Source: Psychroserpens sp.
GTDB lineage: Bacteria; Bacteroidota; Bacteroidia; Flavobacteriales; Flavobacteriaceae
Length of the DNA stretch: 64,000 nt
Direction: 5' to 3'
NCBI GenBank assembly: GCA_017643165.1
Contig: JAEPNY010000002.1
Coordinates: 624,979-688,978 of the forward strand
Positions 10,390 to 18,447 of the stretch are shown here, one piece after another. The translations under genes were made by a program, and so were the position numbers. The notes under the pieces were generated by a model. That model worked only from the letters and a program-made list of their open reading frames with translations, searched no databases and was not told the origin of the DNA. How positions within the stretch are numbered: the stretch's first letter is position 1; each line of letters starts with the position of its first letter.

Positions 10390-10422
10390 AAACTGTCGTT
10401 AATAAAAAATTAACGGCAGTTT
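10390..10422. terminator. Bidirectional terminator between the S41 gene and hisIE
   Basis: Arms AAACTGTCGTTAAT (10390-10403) and ATTAACGGCAGTTT (10409-10422) around a five-A loop, with one non-Watson-Crick position. T-rich tracts follow on the plus side (TTATTTTT) and on the minus side (TTTTTC). It lies 63 bases after the S41 stop and overlaps the hisIE stop codon, so it probably ends both convergent transcripts. Confidence 0.75.
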
Positions 10423-11017
10423 ATTTTTCACGTTGCTTTAAGACATTGACGATATCATCTAAACGATAGCCTTTTGCTTGAAGTAATATCAAGTAATGAA
10501 AGAGTAAGTCTGCACTTTCATTCAAAAATAGATCGTCATTTGAATCTTTAGCTTCAATTACAGTTTCTACAGCCTCCTCTCCTACTTTTTGAGCAATTTT
10601 GTTTATGCCTTTAGCGAATAAGGATGCCACATACGATGTATCTTGACTAGCATTGTCTTTTCGGGATTGGATTATGGCTTCCAAATGACTTAAAAAGCCA
10701 TACTCCTGTGCATTTTGTTCATCCCAACAGGTATCCGTTCCTTTATGGCAAGTTGGTCCAGCTGGAACAACTTTAATTAATAATGCATCTTTATCACAAT
10801 CTAACTTAATGTCAATTAGTCGCAATACGTTACCACTTTCTTCTCCTTTAGTCCAGAGACGCTGTTTCGAACGACTATAAAAAGTGACCAGTTTTGAATC
10901 AACTGTTTTCTGATATGCCTCTTCATTCATATAACCCAGCATCAATACTTTATTTGTTATAGCATCTTGAATAATTGCAGGTACTAATCCGTTTTGTTTT
11001 GAAAAATCTATCTCCAT
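10421..11017 (-). CDS. hisIE: Bifunctional phosphoribosyl-AMP cyclohydrolase / phosphoribosyl-ATP pyrophosphatase
   Basis: Catalyses steps 2 and 3 of histidine synthesis: hydrolysis of PR-ATP to PR-AMP and ring opening to ProFAR. At 198 residues it has the normal length of the HisI-HisE fusion. The HisI part (about 1-105) carries the metal-binding stretch CDKDALLIKV and GPTCHKGTDTCW. The HisE part (about 110-198) has the helical MazG-like core KVGEEAVETVIEAK with acidic Mg-binding residues. It is the last gene of the his operon, 2 bases after hisF, and its stop lies in a terminator hairpin. Confidence 0.97.
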   Translation of the reverse strand: MEIDFSKQNGLVPAIIQDAITNKVLMLGYMNEEAYQKTVDSKLVTFYSRSKQRLWTKGEESGNVLRLIDIKLDCDKDALLIKVVPAGPTCHKGTDTCWDEQNAQEYGFLSHLEAIIQSRKDNASQDTSYVASLFAKGINKIAQKVGEEAVETVIEAKDSNDDLFLNESADLLFHYLILLQAKGYRLDDIVNVLKQREK

Positions 11018-11019
11018 AA

Positions 11020-11775
11020 CTATAATCGCACTTCGATATCTTGGTTTCGAAGCTCTTTTTTTAATTCAATAATATCAATTTCACCAAAATGAAATACGCT
11101 CGCAGCTAAGGCTGCATCAGCTTTTCCTTCTTTAAAGGTGTCCGCAAAATGTTGAACATTCCCAGCACCACCAGATGCAATAATTGGAATATTAACCAAA
11201 CTCGATAGTTGAGCTAATGCTTCGTTGGCAAATCCAGCTTTTGTCCCATCGTGATTCATGGATGTAAATAGTATTTCTCCAGCACCTCGTTGTTCGACTT
11301 CTTGAGCCCATTCAAATAATTTAATTTCTGTTGGAATGGTTCCTCCAGCTAAATGTACGAACCATTCTCCATCGATCTCCTTTGCATCTATGGCTACGAC
11401 CACACACTGACTGCCAAACTTTTGAGATAATTCGTTAATTAATTCTGGTCTTTTGACAGCACTTGAATTTATTGACACTTTATCCGCACCACAATGTAAT
11501 AGATCATCCACATCTTCAACAGATGAAATTCCGCCACCAACTGTGAACGGAATATTAACATGCTCTGCCACATTTAACACCATATCGTGCATTGTTTTTC
11601 GACGCTCTAAAGTCGCAGATATATCAAGAAACACCAATTCGTCTGCACCTAATCTAGCATATTGTTTACCAAGCTCGACCGGATCGCCAGCATCTCTTAG
11701 ATCCACAAAATTGACACCTTTTACGGTTCTTCCGTCTTTAATATCTAAACAAGGTATTATTCGTTTTGTTAGCAT
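11020..11775 (-). CDS. hisF: Imidazole glycerol phosphate synthase cyclase subunit HisF
   Basis: The cyclase half of the HisF-HisH complex. It uses ammonia delivered by HisH to convert PRFAR into imidazole glycerol phosphate and AICAR. It is a 251-residue TIM barrel. The two catalytic aspartates are visible in [14 protein letters not shown] near residue 11 and VVAIDAKEI near 130. The phosphate-binding GGGISS, ASGGAGN and late-barrel motifs are also present. The gene lies 3 bases downstream of hisA and 2 bases upstream of hisIE in the his operon. Confidence 0.98.
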
Positions 11776-11778
11776 AAT

Positions 11779-12492
11779 TTATAAATATGATTCTAAGGCT
11801 TTTAAGGTGATGCTACCTTCGTAAATAGCTTTTCCAATGATCGCTCCTTCGCAGCCAATATCAATCAATGCTTCGACATCATCAATAGTAGTCACACCAC
11901 CAGAAGCAATTAATTTGATTGATGATGATTCAAGAATACGTTTATACAAGTTGATCGAAGGACCTTCCATCATGCCATCTTTAGCAATATCCGTACATAT
12001 CACATAATCAACACCTTTAGTTCTATAATCATCAATAAAAGGTAATACCTCTTGTTCGCTTTCTTCTTGCCAACCGCTAACTGCAATTTTTTCGTTGTTA
12101 CAATCGGCACCAAGTATGATTTTCTCACTGCCATAAGTCTTCAGCCAACCTTCGAAGGTATTTGGATTTTTAACAGCAATACTGCCACCTGTAATCTGTT
12201 TAGCTCCTGAATTAAATGCAATATGAAGGTCTTCATCCGATTTCAATCCGCCACCAAAGTCAATATTCAAACTAGTCTGTGTCGTAATTTCTTCTAAGAC
12301 CTTATAATTCACGATGTGATTGGCTTTAGCACCATCTAAGTCGACTAAATGTAAATACTGGATTCCAGCACCTTCGAAAGCTTTAGCGACTTCGATTGGG
12401 TTTTCATTATATACTTTTTTAGTATTATAATCTCCTTTTGTCAGTCTCACACATTTCCCGTCAATGATATCTATAGCTGGTATGATTCTCAT
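11779..12492 (-). CDS. hisA: ProFAR isomerase HisA
   Basis: Catalyses the Amadori rearrangement of ProFAR to PRFAR in histidine synthesis. It is a 237-residue TIM barrel homologous to HisF. The first catalytic Asp is in [15 protein letters not shown] (Asp8) and the second in [15 protein letters not shown] near 130. Phosphate is bound by FGGGLKS and ASGGVTT. The start ATG overlaps the hisH stop by 4 bases, suggesting translational coupling. Confidence 0.98.
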
Positions 12493-13070
12493 AATTCAAT
12501 AAAATTCTTTAATAATTGCTCTCCTGCAGTACTACTCTTTTCTGGATGAAATTGAACACCATAAAAATTATCCTTTTGCAAAGCCGTTGCATACTCTAGC
12601 TTATAAAATGAATTAGCAATACTTTCTTCGCAGTGTTCAGCGTAATAACTATGTACTAAATACATGTAATCACCTTCATTAATATCTTTAAAAAGATCTG
12701 ACCGTAAATGCGTAATAGTATTCCAACCCATTTGCGGTACTTTCACTTCATTTGAGAATCGTTTGACATCAACATCAAATATCCCAAGGCCTTGAGTATC
12801 TCCCTCTTCGGAATAATTACACATTAGTTGCATTCCGAGACATATACCTAAAACCGGTTGTTTTAACTCAGGAATCACTTCATCCAGTCCACTTTTACGC
12901 AACATTGACATGGCTGAGCTTGCTTCGCCTACACCAGGAAAAATCACTTTATCTGCGGCCTTTATGACTTCTGGATCTTTCGAAAACTTCGCCTCATAAC
13001 CCAAGCGTTTAAAAGCAAACTGTATGCTTTTAATATTGCCTGCACCGTAATCAACAATAACAATATCCAT
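12489..13070 (-). CDS. hisH: Imidazole glycerol phosphate synthase amidotransferase subunit HisH
   Basis: The class I glutaminase that feeds ammonia to HisF. At 193 residues it has normal length. The nucleophile is Cys77 in [10 protein letters not shown], and the His-Glu pair is in VQFHPEKSS near 173-180. The oxyanion-strand region PQMGWN is present. The ATG overlaps the hisB stop by 1 base, and its own stop overlaps hisA by 4 bases, so hisB-hisH-hisA are translationally linked. Confidence 0.98.
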
Positions 13071-14203
13071 TACAGCATTCCTTTTGTAGATGGTAAAATC
13101 ATTTTTTCCACGTCACGTTTCACAGCCATCTTAATGGCTTTAGCAAAAGCTTTAAAGATTGCTTCGATCTTATGATGCTCATTCGTTCCTTCTGCTTTTA
13201 TGTTTAGATTACATTTAGCGCCATCAGTAAATGATTTAAAGAAGTGAAAGAACATTTCTGTAGGCATTTTACCAATCATTTCGCGTTTAAAATCTGCTTC
13301 CCATACCAACCAATTTCTTCCTCCAAAATCAATTGCGGCTTGAGCGAAACAATCATCCATTGGTAAGGCGAATCCGTAGCGTTCAATTCCCAACTTATTT
13401 CCTAATGTTGAAGCAAAAACTTCACCTAATGCGATTGCTGTATCTTCAATGGTATGGTGTTCATCAACCTCTAAATCACCATCCACTTTAATCGTTAGAT
13501 CCAATTGTCCGTGACGAGCAATCTGATCAAGCATATGATCGAAAAATGCAATTCCGGTGTCAATCGAACTTTGACCAGTTCCATCAAGATTAAGATTAAT
13601 CTTAATTTTGGTTTCATTGGTATTTCGCTCTATACTTCCTTTTCTAGCATCAGCTTTTAAAAAGGCATAAATTGCTTCCCAGTCATTACTTTCTAAAGCT
13701 ATATACGAATCTAGTGCTTGTCGATCAACTGTAATTTCATCAGTTCCGAGATAAGTATTATCATTAATATAAATCCCTTTCGCATCTAAATTTTTTGCTA
13801 ACTCAATATCGGTAAGTCGATCACCAATGACGAAAGAATTCTTTAGATCATAACCGTCTTCAAAATACTTGGTAAGTAAACCTGTATTAGGCTTACGTGT
13901 AGGTGCGTTATCTTTTGCGAAAGTGCGATCAATAAATTGTTCGTCAAAAACGACACCTTCTGCTTCAAAAGTTTGCAATACAAAATTATGTACTGGCCAA
14001 AACGTATTCTCTGGATATACCTCCGTTCCAAGACCATCTTGGTTCGTAATCATTACAATCTCAAAATCTAATTCTTTCGCAATTTTGCTTAAGTATTGAA
14101 ATACTTTAGGATAGAAAACTAGTTTATCAAATGAATCGATCTGTTCATCTGCTGGTTCTTTTATTAGTGTTCCATCTCTGTCTATGAATAAAACTCGTTT
14201 CAT
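13070..14203 (-). CDS. hisB: Bifunctional histidinol-phosphatase / imidazole glycerol-phosphate dehydratase
   Basis: A 377-residue fusion of two pathway enzymes. The N-terminal HAD phosphatase (about 1-165) has the nucleophile motif FIDRDGTLI (Asp8, Asp10), ITNQDG and [10 protein letters not shown]. The C-terminal dehydratase (about 180-377) has the duplicated metal sites [22 protein letters not shown] and NEHHKIEA. Because HisB supplies the phosphatase, no separate hisN is needed and the operon encodes the whole pathway. It starts 10 bases after hisC. Confidence 0.98.
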
Positions 14204-14213
14204 AGTTTTAGTT

Positions 14214-15257
14214 TTATAATTCTTTTAATGCTTTTATCAATAAGTTATTCTCTTCCGCATTCCCAACGGTAAATCGCAAACAATTCTCACACAGCGGTTG
14301 ATTGGTTCTATTTCGTACAACGATCCCTTTTAAGATTAATTCCTGGTAACGACGATTCGCATCATCTACTCGCGCTAAAATAAAGTTAGCATCTGATGGA
14401 TATACGTTCTCAATTATCGAAATATCATTCAGTGCTGAGGCTAGCTTTGTTCGTTCGTTTAAAATGTTTTCAATCTCCTTATTAACTGTGTCTTGCTGAG
14501 ACAAGCGTTCTAAAGCCTTGAGTTGGGTCAATTCATTTACATTATAAGGCGGTTTAATTCGGTCTAATATCGAAATGATTTCTTCTGAAGCATAGGACAC
14601 TCCGAGTCGAATTCCAGCCATCCCGTATGCTTTTGACAAAGTCTGCGTTACAATCAAATTTGGAAACTCACCTAATCTATTTATCCAACTCTCATCATGT
14701 GAAAAATCAATATAAGCTTCATCAATCACTACAATTCCGGAAAATTGGTTTAATAGCAATTCAATTTTTTCAGCCTTAAAGCTATTTGATGTCGGATTAT
14801 TAGGCGAGCATAAAAACAACAACTTCGTTCTCTCATTAGCCTCGTCTAAAATATCATTAACCTTTGGCTCGAATGAATTATCCAATGGAATTTTAATCAC
14901 ATCAATAGCATTCACATTAGCCAGTACCTCATACATACCATAGGTTGGCGGTAATGTGATTACAACATCTCTATTCGGTTCACAGAACGCTCTAAAAATG
15001 AGATCTAAGACTTCGTCACTACCGTTTCCTAATAAGATTTGATTTGAAGGCACACCTTTCAGTTTTGAAAGTTGGGCTTTTACCTTATTTTGTTTTGGAT
15101 CTGGATAGCGATTCACACCATTTTCAAACGGATTTTCATTAGCGTCAATAAATACCATATCGGTACTCACCTCTTTAAATTCATCTCGTGCTGAGGAATA
15201 AGGTTTCAACGTCTGAATATTGGATCTCACCAAGCGATTTAAATTAAATCCTGCCAT
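14214..15257 (-). CDS. hisC: Histidinol-phosphate aminotransferase HisC
   Basis: PLP-dependent transaminase converting imidazole acetol phosphate to histidinol phosphate. It has 347 residues. The PLP lysine is Lys209 in [12 protein letters not shown]. Cofactor contacts are visible in [19 protein letters not shown] and [10 protein letters not shown], and the substrate arginine region is near the C-terminus (LRFTVG). It overlaps the hisD stop by 1 base. Confidence 0.97.
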
Positions 15258-16540
15258 TACTTTAAATCTTTTAATCTTAATGTTACAGCATTCTTGTGCG
15301 CCTGTAAACCCTCGGCTTCAGCCATCAACTCGATGGTGTTACCAATATTCAATATTCCTTCCGCAGAAATCTTTTGAAACGTGATACTTTTATTAAAACT
15401 ATCTAAGTTTACTCCTGAGTATGCCTTACTGAATCCGTTTGTTGGTAGCGTGTGATTTGTACCAGAGGCATAATCTCCTGCACTTTCAGGTGTATAATTT
15501 CCGATGAATACCGAACCTGCATTCGCAATATTATTCACATAAAAATCATCGTCATTTGTACAAATTATAAAGTGTTCAGGTGCATATTCATTAATCATAT
15601 CGAGCGCAACTTCTTTAGATTCGACATAAATTAATTTCGAATTATCAATGGCATTTTGAGCCATTTCTCGTCGCGGTAATGCGAGGATCTGTTTTTGAAC
15701 TTCTTCCTTTACAGCTTCAACGAGCTGCTCTGACGTAGAGACCAGGATCACCTGACTATCTGACCCATGCTCGGCTTGACTTAACAAATCAGAAGCCACA
15801 TAACTCGGGTTCGCTGCATCATCTGCAACGACTAATAATTCACTCGGACCAGCAGGCATATCGATGGCTACACCAAATTTTGTAGCTAACTGTTTAGCCA
15901 CAGTTACGAATTGATTTCCGGGACCAAAAATCTTATAAACCTGTGGCATACTTTCTGTACCGAAAGTCAATCCAGCTATGGCCTGAATACCTCCTACTTT
16001 AAGTATTTTGGTCACACCACAAAGTTGCGCTGTATATAATATTTCATTGGCAATCTCACCTTTATTATTTGGAGGTGAACACAATACAATTTCCTTACAT
16101 CCTGAGATTTGTGCTGGAACTGCTAACATCAATACGGTTGAAAATAATGGTGCTGTTCCTCCAGGAATATATAGGCCTACCTTTTGGATTGGTCGTTTTT
16201 CCTGCCAACATTCAATGCCATTTGAAGTTTCAATCGAAATACGATCTGTTTTTTGCGCTTTGTGAAACCTTTCAATATTGGCCTTCGCTGTTTTGATCGC
16301 CGTTTTTAGTTCGTCTGACACGTTATTAGACGCTGATTCAATTTCTTCTTGACTCACGATCAAATCGCTCAATTGTGCGCCATCAAAGAGCTGTGTATAT
16401 TTCAGAATGGCTTGATCACCTTGACGCTTCACATCATTGAAGATCTCATTTACGGTATTTTCAATATTCTCTACAGTTTGTGTTGGACGCCTTAGCAAAA
16501 TCGTCCACTCTGATCGTTCTGGATTATATACTGTTTTCAT
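15257..16540 (-). CDS. hisD: Histidinol dehydrogenase HisD
   Basis: NAD-dependent zinc enzyme that oxidises histidinol to histidine in two steps. I use the ATG at 16538-16540, giving 427 residues starting MKTVYNPERSEW. It overlaps the hisG stop by one base (TAATG), the same coupling seen elsewhere in this operon. An in-frame ATG 27 bases further upstream would overlap hisG more and adds nine untypical residues. Key motifs are GLYIPGGTAPLFSTVLM, FGPGNQFVTVAKQ, DMPAGPSELLV, QAEHGSDSQ and the late APEHFI and GNYTPESAGDYASGTNH segments. Confidence 0.97.
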   Translation of the reverse strand: MKTVYNPERSEWTILLRRPTQTVENIENTVNEIFNDVKRQGDQAILKYTQLFDGAQLSDLIVSQEEIESASNNVSDELKTAIKTAKANIERFHKAQKTDRISIETSNGIECWQEKRPIQKVGLYIPGGTAPLFSTVLMLAVPAQISGCKEIVLCSPPNNKGEIANEILYTAQLCGVTKILKVGGIQAIAGLTFGTESMPQVYKIFGPGNQFVTVAKQLATKFGVAIDMPAGPSELLVVADDAANPSYVASDLLSQAEHGSDSQVILVSTSEQLVEAVKEEVQKQILALPRREMAQNAIDNSKLIYVESKEVALDMINEYAPEHFIICTNDDDFYVNNIANAGSVFIGNYTPESAGDYASGTNHTLPTNGFSKAYSGVNLDSFNKSITFQKISAEGILNIGNTIELMAEAEGLQAHKNAVTLRLKDLK

Positions 16541-17397
16541 TATATCACCATATTTTCGATTGGACATACTAATATTCCTTCGGCACCATTAGCTTTAAGC
16601 TCATCAATGATTTCCCAGAATTCATTTTTATTTATTACCGAGTGTAACGAACTCCAGCCATCTTTAGCCAAAGGCAAAATGGTTGGACTATTCATGCCTG
16701 GTAATATATTAATGATCGCTTCTAACTTTTCATTAGGTGCGTTAAGCAACACATATTTATTACGTCGGCCTTTGAGTACAGATTGTAATCGAAATTGTAA
16801 ACGGTCTAAAATGTCTTGATTATCACTAGAAATTAATGGTGATACCGCAAGTACGGCTTCTGATTTTAAAAGCACTTCTGCCTCTTTGAGCCCATTTTTA
16901 AATAATGTGCTTCCGCTGGATACAATATCTACAATCGCATCGGCTAATCCAATGTTAGGAGCTATTTCTACTGATCCATTAATGATATGCAAGTTGGCGT
17001 TTACATTGTGTTTTTCTAAAAACTGATTTACCGTATTTGGATACGACGTCGCAATACGCTTTCCTTCTAAATCCTGAATTGAGTTGTACTTGGAAGATTT
17101 TGGAACTGCCACAGAAACTTTACATGATGAAAAACCTAATTTTTCAAGTGTAGCGATGCCGTTTCCTTTTTCGATTAATACATTCTCACCGATTATGGCT
17201 GCGTCAACGACACCATCCTTAAGGTATTGAGGAATATCTCCATTTCTTAAATAAAACACCTCTAGGGGAAAGTTTCGTGCTGATGCTTTTAGTTGGTCTT
17301 TTCCGTTGTCAATCGAAATACCAACGTCTTTCAACAAACGCATCGAATCGTCGTGAAGACGACCTGATTTTTGAACTGCAATTTTTAATTTACTCAT
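16540..17397 (-). CDS. hisG: ATP phosphoribosyltransferase HisG (long form)
   Basis: Catalyses the committed step, joining PRPP and ATP to PR-ATP, and is the usual target of histidine feedback. At 285 residues it is the long form: a type II periplasmic-binding-like catalytic region (about 1-210), then a C-terminal regulatory ACT-like domain (about 215-285). It therefore needs no HisZ. Visible motifs are IAVQKSGRLHDDS at the start, GENVL, and DAIVDIVSSGSTLFKNGL, the PRPP-binding loop. It is the first structural gene, 99 bases downstream of the histidine-rich leader ORF and 37 bases downstream of the attenuator hairpin. Confidence 0.97.
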   Translation of the reverse strand: MSKLKIAVQKSGRLHDDSMRLLKDVGISIDNGKDQLKASARNFPLEVFYLRNGDIPQYLKDGVVDAAIIGENVLIEKGNGIATLEKLGFSSCKVSVAVPKSSKYNSIQDLEGKRIATSYPNTVNQFLEKHNVNANLHIINGSVEIAPNIGLADAIVDIVSSGSTLFKNGLKEAEVLLKSEAVLAVSPLISSDNQDILDRLQFRLQSVLKGRRNKYVLLNAPNEKLEAIINILPGMNSPTILPLAKDGWSSLHSVINKNEFWEIIDELKANGAEGILVCPIENMVI

Positions 17398-17434
17398 TGT
17401 TAATTTTAATATGCCTGAGCTAATTTTTGAATTA

Positions 17435-17466
17435 AAAAACCCGTTCGATTAGCTCAAACGGGTTTT
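17435..17466 (-). terminator. Attenuator terminator of the his operon
   Basis: On the minus strand a stem is formed by 17466-17454 with 17437-17449. It includes the G/C-rich block GTTTGAG opposite AACGGG-type bases, with one bulged base and one mismatch, and is followed by a run of six T (17440-17435). The hairpin sits between the leader ORF stop (17497) and the hisG ATG (17397), so it would stop transcription before hisG. Two competing pairings exist. The leader end CTCAAGCG (17510-17503) pairs with CGTTTGAG in the 5' arm (17461-17454). The loop GAGCTAAT (17456-17449) pairs with ATTAGCTC (17425-17418). Both would break the terminator. Confidence 0.75.
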
Positions 17467-17496
17467 AAATATGTGTTGATTTTATTCAATACATTT

Positions 17497-17553
17497 TCAG
17501 CTCGCTTGAGGGCAAGTATGAAAATGATGGTGATGTGTTTGAATAAAAGTCAT
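17497..17553 (-). CDS. hisL: Histidine operon leader peptide
   Basis: An 18-codon ORF on the minus strand reading MTFIQTHHHHFHTCPQAS followed by TGA. Five of six consecutive codons (His7-His10 and His12) are histidine, which fits a regulatory leader far better than chance. If charged tRNA-His is scarce, a ribosome would stall on the His run and leave the end of the ORF (CTCAAGCG) free to pair with the 5' arm of the downstream terminator. If histidine is plentiful, the ribosome reaches the stop codon, covers that segment and lets the terminator form. A stem is also possible between the His-codon region (TTATTCAA and CATTTTC) and 17497-17481 (GAAAATG and TTGAATAA). The ORF is too short for most gene finders. 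A 7-of-8 match to the -7 box (AAACTTTG, 17578-17571) lies just upstream. Confidence 0.82.
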   Translation of the reverse strand: MTFIQTHHHHFHTCPQAS

Positions 17554-17631
17554 GTTTCTTTTTCTTTGAACAAAGTTTGCGAATTATTATTCAGAAATCC
17601 TAATTTTCAATTATTAAATTTCTGTTAAGAC

Positions 17632-18447
17632 CTATTGATTACCTAAAATGATCGGCATTCCTGACTCTCCAGATCCAATTACGATCACTTTAGAATTATC
17701 TGATTCCGATAGTTTTATCGTTGCTTCTATCCCTTTATCCTGAAGAATTTTATCAGTAAGAGATGCACTTAAAATACGGTTTGCGTCTGCCTTACCTTGG
17801 GCTTCGATACGCTGACGTTCTGCCTCTTTTTCAGCAGTTACAAGTCTAAATTCGTATTCAAGAGACTCTTGTTCTTGTTTCAGTTTTCTCTCGATCGCAT
17901 CTTTAATTGTTGGTGGTAAGGTAACATCTCTAACCAGTATCTCATCCAATACAATATATTGTTCATCTACGATCTTTTTAGTCTCTTCGAAGATCTCTTG
18001 TTGAATTGCATCACGCTTACTTGAATAGAGTTGTTCTGGCGTATAACGCCCAACAACACTACGAGCAGCAGAACGAATAGTAGGTAAGATAATACGGTTA
18101 AGATAATTGTCACCGATCTCTTGGTGTAACTTACCAAGGTTTGCAACGTCTGGTTTATACCAAGCCGAAGCATCTAATTGAATATCTAATCCGTTAGATG
18201 ATAATACTTTCATTTTTTCGAAAATCTCTTGACGTCTTACTTCATAAACGTAGACTTTATTCCAAGGCGCTACGATATGAAACCCTTCACCTAATGGTGG
18301 CTCATCTGTAACAACTCCGCCTCCAAATGTTTTATAAAGCACACCTGCCTCACCAGATCCAATAGTTATAGCAGATTTTGATAATAATATTATAACAACA
18401 ATTACCGCGAAGATCACTGGTAATGCAATTTTAGGTAGTTTTTCCAT
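17632..18447 (-). CDS. Prohibitin-family SPFH/Band 7 membrane protein
   Basis: A 271-residue protein with one N-terminal membrane helix (about 7-26), then an SPFH/Band 7 domain (about 30-200). A charged helical stretch rich in Glu, Lys and Arg (RLVTAEKEAERQRIEAQGKADANRIL) follows, as in prohibitin-like proteins. Bacterial members form large ring assemblies at the membrane and often modulate proteases such as FtsH; no partner protease is encoded here. It is the last gene of the fabG operon, 11 bases after the VWA gene, and lies just upstream of the his leader. No strong terminator separates them. Confidence 0.88.
   Translation of the reverse strand: MEKLPKIALPVIFAVIVVIILLSKSAITIGSGEAGVLYKTFGGGVVTDEPPLGEGFHIVAPWNKVYVYEVRRQEIFEKMKVLSSNGLDIQLDASAWYKPDVANLGKLHQEIGDNYLNRIILPTIRSAARSVVGRYTPEQLYSSKRDAIQQEIFEETKKIVDEQYIVLDEILVRDVTLPPTIKDAIERKLKQEQESLEYEFRLVTAEKEAERQRIEAQGKADANRILSASLTDKILQDKGIEATIKLSESDNSKVIVIGSGESGMPIILGNQ

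Follow-up and report, generated by a model that had tools for sequence, protein, structure and literature searches.

The region upstream of the histidine operon in a 64,000-nucleotide stretch of Psychroserpens sp. (contig JAEPNY010000002.1; hereafter, the window) very probably encodes a histidine-leader transcription attenuator. Its read-through transcript contains a further helix, between the terminator and a segment just ahead of the hisG start codon, that we regard as practically certain to be a real RNA structure. We number the pairing strands 1 to 6 (Table 1) and name helices by their strands: 2:3 is the antiterminator, 3:4 the terminator and 3:5 the additional helix. We lean toward a reading in which the transcription attenuator is joined by a second, translational switch acting on hisG. 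The attenuator as such is not new, having already been reported for the Flavobacteriaceae; judging from sequence comparison, the new part appears to be the start-anchored, covarying segment 5 and its 3:5 helix. In the portion examined, PMC9723704 gives strong clues, in Flavobacterium psychrophilum and other Flavobacteriaceae, to leader-peptide attenuation ahead of amino-acid operons, and it describes before hisG a conserved 5' element without an Rfam hit. Attenuation is proposed there as well; no structure, segment 5 or start-codon pairing is described in the main text examined. A description of segment 5 was likewise not found in the main-text parts consulted of PMC4833913, PMC7366714, PMC6429828, PMC2864571, PMC6847099, PMC9413887, PMC3896937 and PMC8305728 or in literature searches on his attenuation in Bacteroidota.

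The leader open reading frame (ORF) lies on the minus strand at 17553-17497 (ATG ACT TTT ATT CAA ACA CAT CAC CAT CAT TTT CAT ACT TGC CCT CAA GCG AGC TGA) and, as the initial annotation had it, has 18 codons with five His codons among six consecutive ones. The terminator hairpin that it had placed ahead of hisG is present at 17466-17434, as AAAACCCGTTTGA-GCTAA-TCGAACGGGTTTT followed by a T run. The locus therefore has a short leader ORF rich in cognate codons and an intrinsic terminator between this ORF and hisG, and the genes 3' of the leader (hisG, D, C, B, H, A, F, IE) produce the amino acid that would be sensed. The 201-nucleotide (nt) region folds with a z of -4.7 relative to dinucleotide shuffles, with 0 of 200 shuffles equaling it, and the leader-to-terminator stretch (17567-17437) with a z of -6.4. 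No Rfam family matches at its gathering score across the 64-kb window, and none of the 17 sub-threshold matches (for example, Trp_leader, 20.3 bits of 41) is to the enteric his leader family, which we take to be His_leader (RF00514).

The leader is widely conserved. In a set of close relatives obtained by a hisG search of genome contigs (the best 80 of 550 relatives), a His-run ATG leader of 16-18 codons is found in 80/80, although in one of them, L073, it sits within a longer in-frame reading. A broader family set comprised one genome per genus (two from the window's own genus; n=159), of which 138, counting the window's own, contain hisG; leader counts refer to the 137 other hisG regions (30 + 107). 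A His-run leader occurs in 134 of these, and the remaining three show a leader-like ORF with fewer His codons. Under a strict rule (ATG start, at most 30 codons) the count is 132/137, against 0/137 in shuffled hisG upstream regions, and no His-run leader was found in 56 trpE/pheA upstream regions under the loose or the strict rule. Strict-rule leaders are also present in 16/16 loci from other families of the order, with family f15 counted separately, and in 22/28 class-level loci. A covariance model (R1) built from 25 leaders gives one strong match in the window's genome, the next hit in this search for further copies being at E 0.57; across the phylum, under stricter filters, it matches 18/148 genomes at E <= 0.01, all but one inside the order, and the model is narrow, so most class-level leaders are missed. 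A putative attenuator leader thus occurs in nearly every sampled hisG-bearing genus of the family, as well as in further families of the class. The initial annotation had staked its proposal of attenuation as in enteric his operons on such conservation, and the proposal is supported: leader ORF, antiterminator pairing and terminator are all conserved family-wide.

Two side observations concern more distant loci. Many of the class-level loci (L248-L275) have a different terminator sequence, of the GGCUUACC...GGUAAGCC type. In family f15, whose genomes are 0.6 Mb, a His-run leader is found in 0/6 loci (L223, L225, L226, L227, L230, L232) and a hairpin with a T run (AAGCTTAC...GTAAGCTTTT) precedes hisG in 6/6; possibly, this leaderless hairpin is what genome reduction has left of the attenuator.

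A terminator is called within 130 nt of hisG in 136/138 family-set genomes, the exceptions being L172 and L187. Among the 133 genomes with both leader and terminator calls, 130 have a 2:3 helix with a score of 14 or more; it begins a median of 24 nt after the first His codon (5-95%: 21-27) and 12 nt before the stop. Against mononucleotide shuffles, 2:3 reaches p<=0.05 in 101/133 and p<=0.01 in 30/133, so each individual case is modest, as is the window's own 8-bp helix between leader end and terminator arm taken alone (p 0.04). In the window, the leader end CTCAAGCG is at 17510-17503, as originally placed, and its pairing with the terminator 5' arm exists, but the arm CGTTTGAG occupies 17460-17453, one base below the position first given. 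The antiterminator therefore shares a strand with the terminator and is placed where the position of the ribosome decides between them. The ribosome footprint extends about 14 nt ahead of the A site. With this geometry, a ribosome stalled at the first His codons would leave segment 2 free to pair with segment 3, which would block 3:4 and let the polymerase enter hisG; a ribosome that has reached the stop would cover segment 2, so that 3:4 forms and transcription ends. Comparison establishes the leader, the 2:3 geometry and the terminator; the stalling of the ribosome we infer.

When no ribosome is present, the 1:1' stem could enclose segment 2, again leaving 3:4 to form and transcription to end. 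The stem across the His codons that was noted earlier does exist (TTATTCAA at 17546-17539 with TTGAATAA at 17489-17482). Across the family, 1:1' reaches p<=0.02 in 15/133 genomes and p<=0.05 in 53/133 (mononucleotide shuffles); given this weak family-wide support, we reject it as a strongly conserved element.

Upstream of the leader, 111/133 genomes have an [N]ANNTTTG box no more than 45 nt from the leader ATG, and 50/133 have TANNTTTG, both being raw counts without a shuffle comparison; the TTTG-to-ATG distance in this set has a median of 17 nt. Such boxes span -12 to -5 according to the part of PMC9723704 examined. From this position and the box-to-ATG spacing, we predict a transcript start near 17566 and a 5' untranslated region (UTR) of about 13 nt.

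The pairing between the terminator loop (GAGCTAAT, 17455-17448) and a downstream stretch (ATTAGCTC, 17424-17417) was also present in the initial annotation, with both strands one base too high, and was counted there among the competing structures. This second part does not hold: the 3' strand is transcribed after the terminator, and segment 5 can act only on read-through RNA. We therefore reject a role for segment 5 in the termination decision. The match belongs to a distinct and longer helix, 3:5, which covaries and had been left uninterpreted. In relatives, the terminator arm and loop have a complementary stretch ahead of hisG, one such pairing being GUUUGAGUAAAUC with GAUUUACUCAAAC. In a set of 81 sequences compared with mononucleotide shuffles, 72 have a 3:5 helix at z > 2 and 61 have one at z > 4; cross-pairing in this set gives an average score of 25.4 with a sequence's own tail compared with 17.3 with foreign tails. 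In the family test (127 genomes, 9 tails shorter than 18 nt having been dropped), the helix is detected against dinucleotide-shuffled tails at p<=0.01 in 76 genomes, p<=0.02 in 80 and p<=0.05 in 85.

Both sides of the helix change in step. For the covariation test, segment 5 was placed by six arm pairs and by nearness to 16 nt from the start, ignoring the loop, which was feasible in 100/127 genomes; since this placement favors about 16 nt, its distance histogram is no evidence, and the distances cited below come from the shuffle test. Loop pair 8 is paired in 79/100 (T-A 30, A-T 28, C-G 11, T-G 10), with a permutation mean of 45.2 and a maximum of 59 in 1000, and loop pair 9 in 81/100 (mean 45.5, maximum 62). 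Pairs 10, 11 and 13 likewise exceed all 1000 permutations. Parsimony on the hisG tree (71 of the 81 set, with segment 5 placed) indicates that the Watson-Crick state changed six times at pair 8 and five times at pair 9, and at arm pair 3 a U-A to C-G exchange is seen in 10 of 79 genomes preselected for a significant helix. By helix score, without shuffles, segment 5 also occurs in further families within the order (f4: L241, L242, L243, L246; f14: L222, L234, L239; f6: L235) and in L274, the sole class-level locus examined for it; L219 has a different 11-bp candidate helix, and L220, L221, L231 and L240 have no notable segment 5 helix by this score.

The conserved motif, present before hisG in two inverted copies, could in principle be a DNA operator for a regulator protein instead of an RNA element. 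We find this barely credible and reject it: terminator and segment 5 are separated by anything from 3 to 37 nt, G-U pairs occur frequently on one side, and the halves change in step with no single motif being kept. The complementarity would be identical in trans, and attenuator RNAs that act in trans are known, such as rnTrpL of rhizobia; the terminated leader could accordingly serve as a small RNA, its terminator arm and loop binding segment 5 of the hisG mRNA. This is very improbable, as the loop is mostly 3-5 nt, the stem would have to open and the partner in cis is always nearer.

Segment 5 is held close to the hisG start codon. In the 80 genomes with a helix at p<=0.02, its distance to the start has a median of 16 nt (interquartile range (IQR) 15-17; 63/80 within 13-18), and the distance from terminator to segment 5 has an IQR of 15-22; a few long tails bring the two standard deviations close together (7.5 and 6.4, respectively). 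The median is 16 in the 59 genomes in which hisG begins with ATG-AGY and 15 in the other 21. Many species of genus g111 have longer distances, 22-36. Separately, L008, L016, L019, L055, L066, L068 and L076 carry a small GC-rich hairpin insert, of type GATACCCGCTTTCTCGGG, between segment 5 and the start, and there segment 5 is 33-48 nt from the start codon.

The same kind of helix was sought in 31 family genomes in the leaders of trpE (30 loci) and pheA (29 loci); of the 29 tails that could be tested (19 trpE, 10 pheA), none has it at p < 0.05, the smallest value being 0.07. Together with the shuffles, this leads us to reject 3:5 as a generic artefact of helix finding. It also favors an explanation in which the locus is a plain transcription attenuator and 3:5 leaves translation unaffected, being a neutral by-product or a lock that only stops read-through mRNA from folding back into the terminator hairpin; segment 5 is, moreover, made too late to influence termination, and 42/127 tested his leaders have no detectable 3:5. 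Neutrality is difficult to reconcile with the repeated two-sided changes in 3:5, and a lock leaves unexplained the narrow distance to the start, which is kept without an AGY start too. We consider a plain attenuator unlikely, albeit a serious contender, and return to the reading in which the 3:5 helix probably, though far from certainly, acts on hisG translation.

How 3:5 could do so is suggested by calculated energies and accessibilities. In the window, the minimum free energy (MFE) fold of the read-through stretch contains the terminator and a 5:6 hairpin on the start codon, with the U and G of the start codon paired. Over the 80 genomes, 3:4 has an average advantage of 3.1 kcal/mol (sd 4.1) over 3:5, which in turn is about as stable as 2:3 (+0.2, sd 3.1); the corresponding values for 3:5 in the window are 4.6 worse than 3:4 and 1.8 better than 2:3. 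Hence, 3:5 should arise mainly in the starvation state. In silico, having 3:5 in place of 3:4 opens up the stretch from -14 to +15 around the hisG start in 72/80 genomes and makes it less open in 2; for the AUG itself the counts are 64 and 9, respectively. When segment 5 is masked, AUG accessibility rises by 0.19, versus 0.10 in shuffled tails, an effect found mainly in the ATG-AGY class. In the 59 ATG-AGY genomes, native AUG accessibility is 0.25 compared with 0.49 with synonymous hisG codons (p 7e-8), and it becomes 0.51 when segment 5 is masked.

The opposite direction deserves weighing here. A 3:5 hairpin about 16 nt before the start could hinder 30S loading, unpaired segment 5 then being the ON state: the anchored distance falls in the -20 to +20 region that is less paired in F. 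johnsoniae (PMC6847099, part examined), and it is kept in genomes without an AGY start. Such an OFF helix would, however, usually outcompete 3:4 only with segment 3 withheld from 4, that is, in starvation, when the cell needs hisG; on this view, ATG-AGY genomes would be OFF whichever partner segment 5 takes; and in silico 3:5 opens the start region. We judge it quite improbable. That 3:5 is the ON state is itself evenly balanced in our estimation.

If 3:5 is ON, segment 5 would emerge just 5' of the hisG start after read-through. When segment 3 is free of 4, its arm and exposed loop would capture segment 5 and hold it off the start; when segment 3 is tied up in 3:4, segment 5 could fold on the start codon (5:6) in ATG-AGY genomes, the window's included, and leaky read-through transcripts would then be poorly translated. 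A single stalled leader ribosome may thus set two decisions, the terminator arm and loop serving as a decoy of the hisG start that captures the anti-start strand and turns translation on without a Shine-Dalgarno sequence. This full scheme we offer tentatively, as somewhat less likely than not.

Segment 3, segment 5 and the first hisG codons agree to a degree that is suggestive of such a decoy at the level of sequence. Among 69 hisG genes beginning with Met-Ser, the second codon is AGT in 63, AGC in 5 and TCA in 1, and Ser codons at positions 3-40 are AGY in 43/501, a comparison confined to hisG. GAGTAAA occurs in segment 3 in 17/68 genomes with an AGY start versus 0/68 others. In the 34 genomes of g111, hisG codon 3 is AC(A/T/G) in 28, and the loop is GTACA in 26 of those (not L342 or L363); codon 3 is ATT in three, with a GTATA loop in two (L237, L335; not L238), and AAA in three, with GTAAAA-type loops in L343 and L358 and GCAA in L339. 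Segment 5 tracks the loop in nearly all of these genomes (helix scores without shuffles). Two sister sequences outside g111 with AAC as codon 2, L071 and L078, have matching segments 3 and 5. The hisG +8 base agrees with segment 5 in 139/169 AGY sequences versus 98 expected (0/2000 permutations), or, for unique combinations, in 38/64 versus 29.4 (11/2000), counts in which segment 5 is misplaced in L224, L335 and L348 and L237 is left out. Joint changes on the tree, read by eye with the triads of L224, L335, L348, L237, L071 and L078 set by hand, number about three matched and at least four unmatched.

Several results weigh against a start-directed, translational role of 3:5. The helix does not reach p<=0.05 in 42/127 genomes, and nine further tails are too short; the own tail beats 95% of foreign tails in only 24/81 sequences, two loop classes (GAGAAATCA, GAGAACTTCA) pair no better with their own tail, and loop pairs 7 and 12 are within the permutation range. 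The trpE/pheA comparison has lower power, as those tails are often shorter than his tails. The greater stability of 3:4 means that 3:5 requires segment 3 to be withheld from 4. The opening of the start by 3:5 is partly due to the removal of any pairing partner, since shuffled tails gain too. For the 21 genomes that have 3:5 but no AGY start, no masking of the start by segment 5 is seen on average, native AUG accessibility being 0.60 compared with 0.54 under synonymous recoding. The codon-choice p values ignore shared ancestry, and these figures are inflated. The hisG +6 and +7 bases are nearly invariant and agree with segment 3 or 5 no more often than expected; the +8 base is not followed in L048, L080, L179, L182, L185, L243 and L246; and changes in hisG codons 2 and 3 are unfollowed in segments 3 and 5 in, for example, L048, L080, L182, L238, L243, L246, L274 and L363. 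The evidence for 5:6 pairing with the start codon in ATG-AGY genomes is therefore suggestive and mixed, and 5:6 as a universal feature is rejected: on average it is absent in non-AGY genomes, and codon changes outside g111 are often unfollowed.

How does this element compare with known systems? A 2004 survey by Vitreschak et al. reportedly dealt mainly with attenuators in proteobacteria and also with some in Bacteroidetes/Chlorobi. In the trp attenuators of the same family, a cognate-codon leader is likewise combined with a terminator, with a Trp-run leader at 30/30 trpE loci; they differ in that none of 19 testable trpE tails has a 3:5 helix at p<0.05 and in that the terminator is often nearer the gene. 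The window's own genome has leader ORFs MKTRNNTYYNWFYFFFN before pheA (L284) and MNTVLNHTWWWSYRISNVVS before trpE (L319), each followed by a terminator-like hairpin. These are likely Phe and Trp attenuators, and similar leaders are found at 23/29 pheA and 30/30 trpE loci. In Bacillus subtilis trpE, a hairpin that blocks the Shine-Dalgarno sequence provides dual control of transcription and translation. Some attenuators sequester the ribosome-binding site (RBS) instead of terminating (PMC9413887, part examined). In these dual-control systems an RNA conformation can mask the start of the first gene, as 5:6 may do in the ATG-AGY genomes here, and the element described here has a second mutually exclusive helix conserved in its read-through transcript; in contrast, the proposed masking strand here would pair with the start codon itself, and the release strand would be the terminator arm and loop.

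The enteric his attenuator shares the His-run leader ORF, the mutually exclusive antiterminator and terminator and the position before the his operon (PMC3896937 and PMC9413887, in the parts examined), whereas the element described here is without an Rfam match at the gathering score and has a Bacteroidota-type promoter box, a short predicted 5' UTR and the extra segment 5. Elsewhere in the phylum, small ORFs resembling leader peptides are described in Bacteroides 5' UTRs (PMC7366714), and the Bacteroid-trp motif, RF01692, is listed in PMC2864571, both for the portions of these papers examined. The organism group is described as being without Shine-Dalgarno sequences in the part of PMC6847099 consulted. 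In Bacteroidota, which also have an unusual promoter, a widespread attenuator is indirect evidence that leader translation steers transcription, and the his leader is a ready test system for polymerase-ribosome coupling. If its translational role is true, the 3:5 helix would be a start-codon switch independent of Shine-Dalgarno masking.

Table 1. Features of the his leader region and operon in the window.
Feature	Coordinates	Strand	Description	Basis
Promoter-like -7 box	17571..17578	-	AAACTTTG; consensus TAnnTTTG, first base deviates; ends 17 nt 5' of leader ATG	
Leader ORF	17497..17553	-	18 codons, MTFIQTHHHHFHTCPQAS	read from sequence; His-run leader conserved
Segment 1	17539..17548	-	UUUUAUUCAA; partner of 1'	folding
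Segment 2	17503..17510	-	CUCAAGCG; final leader codons, antiterminator strand	family-wide helix with segment 3
Segment 1'	17480..17489	-	UUGAAUAAAA; 1:1' stem encloses segment 2	folding
Terminator 3:4	17434..17466	-	intrinsic terminator with T run	sequence and folding; conserved
Segment 3	17448..17460	-	CGUUUGAGCUAAU; terminator 5' arm and loop; common to 2:3, 3:4 and 3:5	sequence and comparison
Segment 5	17413..17424	-	AUUAGCUCAGGC; pairs with segment 3 (17459-17448), 12 bp; 15 nt before hisG ATG	shuffles and covariation
Segment 6	17387..17396	-	UGAGUAAAUU; hisG start region, alternative partner of segment 5 (17425-17416)	window MFE fold
hisG	16540..17397	-	first operon gene; start at 17397	NCBIfam TIGR00070 (E 9e-56) and TIGR03455
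hisD, hisC, hisB, hisH, hisA, hisF, hisIE	10421..16567	-	contiguous, same strand as hisG	NCBIfam

The gene 5' of the leader (window 17632-18447, minus strand) has no NCBIfam match at 1e-10; from its sequence, we presume that it resembles an SPFH/prohibitin-type membrane protein.
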